Source: an uncultured Alphaproteobacteria bacterium
GTDB lineage: Bacteria; Pseudomonadota; Alphaproteobacteria; HIMB59
Assembly: GCA_902610415.1 (NCBI GenBank)
Contig: CACLVL010000008.1
Span: forward strand, 1 to 36,927
Length of the DNA stretch: 36,927 bases
Direction of reading: 5' to 3'
The notes under the pieces are model-generated. The model was not told the origin of the DNA and searched no databases. It saw only the letters and a list, made by a program, of their open reading frames with translations. The first letter of the stretch is position 1. The number at the start of each line of letters is the position of its first letter. This document shows positions 18,709 through 35,656 of this stretch, in pieces. The translations under genes and the position numbers were made by a program.

Positions 18709-18783
18709 GCGGGCGTAGCTCAGGGGTAGAGCGCAACCTTGCCAAGGTTGAAGTCGAGGGTTCGAATCCCTTCGCCCGCTCCA
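18709..18783 (+). tRNA. trnG: tRNA-Gly (anticodon GCC)
   Basis: Complete cloverleaf. The acceptor stem is GCGGGCG (18709-18715) with CGCCCGC (18773-18779). The D arm is GCTC-AGGGGTA-GAGC, and the anticodon stem CAACC/GGTTG holds the loop TTGCCAA with GCC at 18741-18743. The T arm carries GGTTCGAATCC. The discriminator base is T (18780), as expected for glycine, and CCA is encoded (18781-18783). It is the only tRNA in the window and stands between the divergent cnoX and the convergent RhtB-like gene. Confidence 0.98.
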
Positions 18784-34366: not shown

Positions 34367-34981
34367 TTAATTTGCTATTAGGTTAAGCAGCTTACCAAAT
34401 TTACCAGAGAATTTGATTTTACCGTGGGTGTAAGCTAAACCAATACATCCGGTTTGTGCATGACCAACGGGTGTGTGGTCGTGATCATCACTTCTAACCT
34501 GAACAGAGCCTTGTTTATAACTTCCGTACTCATCGCTGTAAGATCCATGCAATACTAAAAAGCTTTCATTTCCCTCGTGAGTGTGTTGAGGAATCTTTGC
34601 GCCGGGCATCACATGAATAAGCTCTAACTTCTCATTATTCTCTTTTGGAAGAAGTGATGCAACTTTAACATCTTTAAAAGATTTCCATTTGACATCATTG
34701 TTTTTTAAATGACTTCTAAGAGTAATGGGTAATTGGCTAAGTAGTGGATCGTACTCATCACTGATTTTATAAGGGGACTTAACATTTTTTGTCTGATCTA
34801 AAACCCTGTCCCATAAATTATTAGAAAGGGGGCTTTCTTCTGTTTTATTTAAAAAATAACCTCCTACCTCGTTCATGGCAGAGTTGAGTAATCTATTTTC
34901 AGGATCAATTTCAGCTAAACATTGCTTAAATAAAAGACTCGCTGGAGAATTTACAGGTGTACTGAGAATTTCATATGTCAT
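34367..34981 (-). CDS. chrR: ChrR-type cupin anti-sigma factor lacking the N-terminal zinc ligands
   Basis: 204 residues. The C-terminal cupin keeps the metal set of ChrR: H133, H135 and E139 in PQHTHEGNE, and H169, with spacings 2, 4 and 30 identical to those I recall for R. sphaeroides ChrR. The N-terminal anti-sigma domain, which in ChrR binds zinc through a His-x3-Cys-x2-Cys motif, here reads LLFKQCLAEIDPENRLLNSAMNEVGGYFL, with a single cysteine and no such motif. It would hold the neighbouring ECF sigma factor and release it on singlet-oxygen or peroxide stress. Its ATG shares one base with the sigma gene stop. Confidence 0.85.
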   Translation of the reverse strand: MTYEILSTPVNSPASLLFKQCLAEIDPENRLLNSAMNEVGGYFLNKTEESPLSNNLWDRVLDQTKNVKSPYKISDEYDPLLSQLPITLRSHLKNNDVKWKSFKDVKVASLLPKENNEKLELIHVMPGAKIPQHTHEGNESFLVLHGSYSDEYGSYKQGSVQVRSDDHDHTPVGHAQTGCIGLAYTHGKIKFSGKFGKLLNLIAN

Positions 34982-35577
34982 CAGTTAACCATACTTTCAT
35001 TGTCAGATATTAGATTAGCCATACTACCATCTTGTTCCAATTTGCCGCGGATCTTCTCTAAAGCTAGTCGAATCCTTGATTTTACTGTCCCTAAAGGGAT
35101 TTTCGTAATTTCTGCAATCTCTCCGTGTGATTTTTCTTCAAAAAAATTCATTTTTAATAAATCCAATTGATCCTTTGGAAGGTCATCTAAATATTTTGCA
35201 ACCATTTCAAATTTTTGATCGTGCTCTATATTTTCATCAGCTTTCGACTCTACAGGAGGCAATATGGCGGTATCAATATCCTCTAAAATGGCTTTTCTTG
35301 TTTTTCTTAGAATATCAATTTTTTTATTTCGTGCGATAGTATAAATCCACGTACTGGGGGACGCCACAGATGAGTCATAATAATCAGCTTTAGTCCAGAT
35401 TATAGTCATAGTCTCTTGAATTATCTCTTCTGCGATGGCTTCATCTGCTCCAGATTTCATTAAAAAAGATTTTAGTCTTGGACCAAAATAATCGAAAATT
35501 TTCTTAAAACTTCCAATATCTTGTCTTTCAGCTATCTTTTTTAATGCATCCACAAAGGGATTTTTTACTTTCGCCAT
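34981..35577 (-). CDS. rpoE: ECF sigma factor (RpoE, ChrR-controlled type)
   Basis: 198 residues. Region 2 spans about 25-90 (YFGPRLKSFL, EEIIQETMTIIWTKA, STWIYTIARNKKIDILRK). Region 4 spans about 130-185 (LPKDQLDLLKMNFFEEKSHGEIAEITKIPLGTVKSRIRLALEKIR). I chose ATG 35577, because GGGAG lies five bases before it; upstream starts up to 35622 have no such site. The downstream cupin anti-sigma gene, coupled by TGATG, points to the singlet-oxygen/peroxide response type. I found no convincing autoregulatory promoter with the known TGATC/TAAGA spacing. Confidence 0.93.
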   Translation of the reverse strand: MAKVKNPFVDALKKIAERQDIGSFKKIFDYFGPRLKSFLMKSGADEAIAEEIIQETMTIIWTKADYYDSSVASPSTWIYTIARNKKIDILRKTRKAILEDIDTAILPPVESKADENIEHDQKFEMVAKYLDDLPKDQLDLLKMNFFEEKSHGEIAEITKIPLGTVKSRIRLALEKIRGKLEQDGSMANLISDNESMVN

Positions 35578-35656
35578 AATCTCTCCCATTATCATCATTC
35601 CATTTATTATTTTAAAAAGCAATCTTAATTGGTATATTCTCTGACATTAAATCAGC

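Follow-up and report, generated by a model that had tools for sequence, protein, structure and literature searches.

A ChrR-like anti-sigma factor of HIMB59 Alphaproteobacteria without the zinc site of its anti-sigma domain

Among systems of known structure, the SigE-ChrR pair of R. sphaeroides (2Q1Z, 2Z2S; ECF11) is the nearest by sequence, for sigma factor and anti-sigma factor alike, to the gene pair described here. ChrR carries two zinc ions, one held by H6, H31, C35 and C38 of the anti-sigma domain (ASD), the other by H141, H143, E147 and H177 of the cupin (PMC6852236). The zinc-binding anti-sigma factors, or ZAS, are defined by the arrangement H/C-x24/25-H-x3-C-x2-C in the ASD (PMC6432622). 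In class I ASDs, helix IV is the helix that binds sigma region 2 (PMC6852236, PMC7406223), and helix I contacts sigma region 4 (PMC7406223). What exactly the ASD zinc does has been called unknown (PMC6852236). With regard to singlet oxygen, the zinc site has been favoured as the sensor, the cupin is required, and the full mechanism is described as remaining to be elucidated (PMC6432622). The question at stake is whether the ASD zinc or the cupin of ChrR is the singlet-oxygen sensor.

Not all ASDs carry zinc. The ASD of RseA has a similar fold without the metal (PMC6852236), and both RseA and RskA, as class I ASDs, lack the zinc motif (PMC7406223). Groups can contain ASDs of both kinds, with and without zinc, and ASDs without the motif make up about 44% of all ASDs and 28% of the soluble ones (PMC7406223); an older estimate placed the motif in 92% of cytoplasmic ASDs (PMC6432622). 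A soluble ASD without zinc is thus a known kind. The literature found, in its available portions, names no zinc-less ChrR, gives no zinc-less fraction among cupin-type ChrR proteins and describes neither the joint loss of His6, nor N-cap replacement, nor truncation of helix I; the full texts may differ.

The DNA analysed, hereafter the window, is a stretch of 36,927 nucleotides from a HIMB59 alphaproteobacterium whose source assembly measures 0.99 Mb and is 66% complete; HIMB59 is also known as SAR11 subclade V, or AEGEAN-169 (PMC10308909). At 34367-35577, two minus-strand ORFs that share a single base encode an ECF sigma factor and a ChrR-like protein. The sigma gene (34981..35577; all features of the locus given here lie on the minus strand) encodes 198 aa counted from its ATG, and the nearest solved structure to its product is R. 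sphaeroides SigE (2q1z_A, 123 bits). The chrR-like anti-sigma gene (34367..34981), recognised from its ORF together with Pfam and TIGR02451 matches, encodes 204 aa. Among the neighbouring genes, Pfam recognises DUF3429, an IalB-family gene and argininosuccinate synthase, and an Rfam search gave a tRNA at 18709-18780 as its sole match.

The ChrR-like protein matches Pfam Cupin_7 at 46 bits and TIGR02451 (ChrR) at 111.2 bits, which falls short of the curated cut-off of 124.5 and makes it a below-cut-off relative; the alignment covers profile positions 29-214 and leaves positions 1-28 unmatched. In keeping with ChrR-type architecture and ECF11 pairs, a C-terminal cupin-like domain (residues 98-204; 34370..34690) carries four ligands, H133, H135, E139 and H169, and the gene stands directly after that of an ECF sigma factor nearest to R. 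sphaeroides SigE. The cupin ligands had earlier been read as having exact ChrR spacing, and a constant offset of 8 from R. sphaeroides positions 141/143/147/177 bears this out at all four. They are kept in 45/45 unique same-family proteins, 20/20 sister-family proteins and 144/144 class proteins among the matches listed, or 209/209 aligned. The region of helices II-IV can likewise be aligned with R. sphaeroides ChrR, and on this alignment the domain may be a four-helix class I ASD, the AlphaFold model being too poor to judge by. RseA and RskA sit in the membrane and have no cupin, whereas the window protein carries that of ChrR.

Within the ASD (residues 1-66; 34784..34981), the picture differs from that in R. 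sphaeroides. Positions are numbered by a close relative of R. sphaeroides ChrR (L112, 247 bits to 2z2s_B), and in the alignment H6, H31, C35 and C38 have no counterpart in the window protein. The aligner sets L22, D26 and N29 at positions 31, 35 and 38, and residue 6 falls before the start codon. One extra residue stands before D26, and by eye, if this insertion is moved one step later, C21 takes position 31 instead of L22; the equivalent of H31-x3-C35-x2-C38, without HxxxCxxC, accordingly spans C21, D26 and N29 (34895..34921). The N-terminus is about 10 residues shorter, a loss that takes in His6 and the first half of helix I, so that the window protein begins inside helix I of other ChrR proteins. 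An AlphaFold model, based on 42 close homologues, places helices at 13-25, 30-41 and 54-65, in agreement with a missing helix I, but with a mean pLDDT of 48.3 (poor) it cannot carry weight.

The earlier note had described the His-x3-Cys-x2-Cys motif as missing, the ASD as shorter by about a dozen residues, and the upstream DNA as offering no start that would restore the motif. The first statement holds well beyond the window, as HxxxCxxC occurs in 0/45 unique same-family and 0/20 sister-family proteins; none of the 45 shows the ZAS arrangement, and the protein is therefore not a ZAS member. The second is roughly right, given some ten residues fewer at the N-terminus and one inserted later. The third was upheld when upstream frames were checked in the window and in the family loci. 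In 80 redundant same-family loci with a common start Met, the ChrR frame is open for just 0-11 residues upstream, with no prefix that contains a His; this count leaves out a partial locus (L072), three with other starts (L074-L076), and L069 with its copy L077. In L069, from about 3001, and in its copy, the common start Met is absent and the frame begins HLKFLTNP after a stop. The loss of the zinc site in the window is real and not the error of a single genome.

Two other whereabouts for the missing half-helix were considered and rejected. An upstream start or a helix I hidden in another frame was discarded, as the window's three upstream frames hold no helix-I-like segment. Donation of helix I to the C-terminal tail of the sigma factor, which comprises about 17-19 aa past region 4 directly before the chrR start (34984..35040), was discarded by eye only, the tail being variable and without a helix-I-like motif. 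Such a tail is variable across the family and absent from six sister-family sigmas inspected. The window pair thus differs from SigE-ChrR of R. sphaeroides in having no ASD zinc ligands, half of helix I missing and a sigma C-terminal tail.

A homologue is present in 47/52 genomes of the same family and in 80/110 other genomes of the order (127/162 minus 47/52), and the sister-family sample consists of 20 proteins from 20 of those 80 genomes. For the class as a whole, TIGR02451 was searched over 385 genomes, at least 199 of which gave a match, and 144 loci were taken from the matches listed, without G272, where the match is partial, and with a single copy of the tandem pair in L141. The latter locus holds its two ChrR-family frames, side by side in one genome, at 1076-1741 and 1834-2535. 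Because it was gathered with TIGR02451, the sample favours proteins like the seed of that profile. Among the matches listed, HxxxCxxC is present in 109/144 class proteins and absent in 35/144. Among the 35, L140 shows ASD and cupin in different frames at 865-1565, a frameshift or an assembly error, and was dropped from later counts, leaving 34/143 readable. Loss of the zinc site is therefore not peculiar to HIMB59, and concerns about a quarter of class proteins among the matches listed.

These zinc-less class ChrR proteins (L139, L145, L148, L150, L152-L156, L163, L172 and others) resemble the window protein in having lost the motif and kept the cupin ligands. Position 6 is also shared, with His6 lost in 29/30 alignable rows: it is kept in 100/100 motif-bearing and in 1/30 motif-less rows, gapped rows (9 and 4) being left out. 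As His6 is lost together with HxxxCxxC, the zinc site goes as a whole. They differ from the window family in helix I, which is present in those inspected and lacks its first half in the family; cutting the sequences down to the 150 residues that precede the cupin motif removed helix I in a few long-linker rows, such as L142.

A tree was built from linker and cupin only, with 161 rows (10 from the window family and 8 from the sister family) and 151 columns, by a quick method and without a root; 70/157 of its inner branches are unresolved. The zinc state requires 19 changes on it, against 43.9 with shuffled labels, and the well-supported branches alone force 2 changes. The window family and the sister family are each set apart by a branch (99*). 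Several losses of the zinc site are likely, with the proviso that an unrooted tree cannot separate gain from loss.

It had also been suggested that dropping the ASD zinc site saves zinc in a metal-poor ocean. Genome size, rounded to 0.1 Mb, was the only measure used to examine this idea, and it gives a mild lean in its favour, with a median of 3.5 Mb for 34 zinc-less and 4.1 Mb for 109 zinc class members (Mann-Whitney p 0.028, kinship not corrected). In genomes no larger than 2.2 Mb, the motif is nonetheless kept in 7/11 class proteins (and lost in 4/11), and it is missing from 34/143 class relatives among the matches listed, in genomes of up to 5.8 Mb. Moreover, the second metal site, in the cupin, is kept in every aligned protein, and one atom in a low-copy regulator would be a negligible saving. 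Zinc economy is accordingly neither needed nor supported, and we regard it as a very improbable cause of the loss.

A different kind of explanation would be that the ASD no longer binds the sigma factor at all, with the protein acting as a cupin sensor or enzyme that affects the sigma, if at all, in some other way. The truncation falls on helix I, by which class I ASDs touch sigma region 4 (PMC7406223), and the ASD has changed faster than the cupin. Its dN/dS is 0.04-0.19 across eight comparisons with the window; in four pairs where dS is not saturated, it is 0-0.02 for the cupin and 0.06-0.17 for the linker. Constraint is looser on the ASD than on the cupin. The ASD is still under purifying selection, with a dN/dS well below 1, which speaks against a domain that has lost its partner. 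So does the helix IV equivalent (residues 53-66; 34784..34825), where L56 and W57 are among 16 invariant ASD residues in the 42-protein alignment. The sigma gene, finally, adjoins that of the ChrR-like protein in 85/85 family loci (redundant; 45 unique proteins) and 20/20 sister-family loci. Across the class, an adjacent sigma gene was seen at 75/109 zinc and 21/34 zinc-less loci, where a sigma gene may have been missed at some loci because the stretch ends too soon or the gene lies too far off. The region 2.1 stretches of the window sigma and SigE are identical at 8/11 positions (PRLKSFLMKSG versus PKVKGFLMKSG); this stretch contains K38 and M42, which we take to contact ChrR. On balance, loss of sigma binding seems unlikely.

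The reading we favour, and hold to be reasonably probable, is that of a diverged pair of an ECF11-type sigma and a ChrR-type anti-sigma factor in which the ASD would work without zinc, the sigma would be bound and the cupin would sense. The earlier note had proposed that the pair may bind differently, and binding that does not need the ASD zinc is the natural expectation from the results above. Like that of RseA, the ASD could be held together by the packing of hydrophobic residues, and helix N-capping could stand in for the zinc pin where helix III begins; given the poor AlphaFold model, this fold is a proposal only. The retained helix IV would then block sigma region 2, and with helix I shortened, the grip on sigma region 4 would probably be looser or of another kind. 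The signal would enter by way of the cupin domain, in which the four metal ligands do not vary among the aligned proteins, and it is plausible, judging from sequence, that sensing is left to the cupin. Counting against a zinc-free ASD of this kind is the fact that ASD zinc is required for inhibition in R. sphaeroides (PMC6852236). The looser constraint on the ASD and the TIGR02451 score below the cut-off also weigh against the favoured reading.

The proposal of capping comes from the wider class. At the C35 position, 4 of the 34 zinc-less class members keep C, and 22 of the other 30 have N, D, S or T, for which the background over neighbouring ASD columns is 0.163 (binomial p 7e-12 for 22/30, a rough value since the rows are related). 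These residues form the majority in 12/17 family groups of zinc-less class members. N, D, S and T are preferred residues at helix N-caps, and together with their enrichment this preference leads to the idea that capping of helix III has replaced the zinc pin. Of the 45 unique sequences of the window family, 33 carry D at this position, 9 carry V and 3 carry S; V is no N-cap residue, which counts against capping, and the family fits the idea only in part.

Another means by which the ASD might respond is a thiol switch, in which C21, a residue that occupies or adjoins the former H31 position, alone or together with C179 of the cupin, would be oxidised and the sigma released. Both cysteines occur in 45/45 unique family proteins, and 42/45 have no other Cys, an arrangement that would suit such a switch. 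C21, however, may simply be a buried residue, and the position aligned with it is Tyr in 20/20 sister-family proteins. C179 has a counterpart Cys in R. sphaeroides ChrR and is therefore not new, and proximity of the two cysteines is hypothetical. A thiol switch thus appears improbable. The same residue enters the idea that other ligands hold zinc or another metal in the ASD, as the window protein has C21 and the acidic residues E24 and D26 close to the former site. Of these, C21 alone is kept throughout: D26 is exchanged for V or S in the twelve sequences mentioned above, and L075 has A at 24. We consider a replacement metal site very improbable indeed.

The pair may have diverged in its promoter as well. 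Upstream of the sigma gene, a conserved non-coding block of about 40 bases (35599..35639), a probable promoter, has almost the same sequence throughout most of the family, while both flanks diverge; it is loosely kept in L074-L076. Conservation of the block seems to exceed the two elements of a promoter. The sequence TGATC(C) is, we assume, the -35 element of autoregulatory ECF11 promoters, and upstream of the sigma gene TGATC was found in 71/97 class loci (14.6 shuffled) and GTGATCC in 33/97 (1.4 shuffled). Here the window family departs from R. sphaeroides SigE-ChrR, as TGATC is near chance both in the family (17/85 versus 13.8 shuffled) and in the sister family (1/20 versus 3.8 shuffled), and the window itself has TTTAAT at that place. 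A looser pattern, TGAT-N17-19-TAAG, occurs in 28/85 family loci, against 2.7 shuffled, and in 0/97 class loci. With TGATC at chance level and the looser pattern above it, the promoter appears diverged rather than plainly lost, and promoter specificity in the order may have changed too.

Photolyase, amine oxidase, DUF1365 and CMAS are core regulon genes under the sigma promoter of ECF11 pairs. A conserved core regulon that includes furan fatty acid genes has been described (PMC6852236). In 7/8 genomes searched, G089 being the exception, photolyase and CMAS matches lie about 3 kb apart; in both genomes checked (G000 and G130), an amine oxidase and DUF1365 lie between them. A promoter common to the sigma and this cluster was rejected, as G000 and G001 each hold a single copy of the 25-base core of the sigma block (up to 3 mismatches), at the sigma and not at the photolyase cluster, and nothing like the block was seen by eye before the photolyase. 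The photolyase frame itself has no ATG, GTG or TTG between its upstream stop and a conserved YWLRRD in 6/6 genomes of the genus, including the window's (L195-L200); a conserved ATC-GAA shortly before YWLRRD (about 2333-2375 in L195) suggests an ATC start codon.

A broader proposal can be put forward tentatively, with somewhat more doubt than confidence. In ChrR-type anti-sigma factors, the ASD zinc may be a dispensable structural pin that has been lost repeatedly, with a helix N-cap in its stead, and the cupin may be the true sensor of singlet oxygen or peroxide; the HIMB59 family, following the trimming of helix I, would hold its sigma mainly through region 2. Natural ChrR proteins that lack the zinc site and keep the cupin ligands intact, about a quarter of the class among the matches listed, provide ready-made test cases for deciding between zinc site and cupin.
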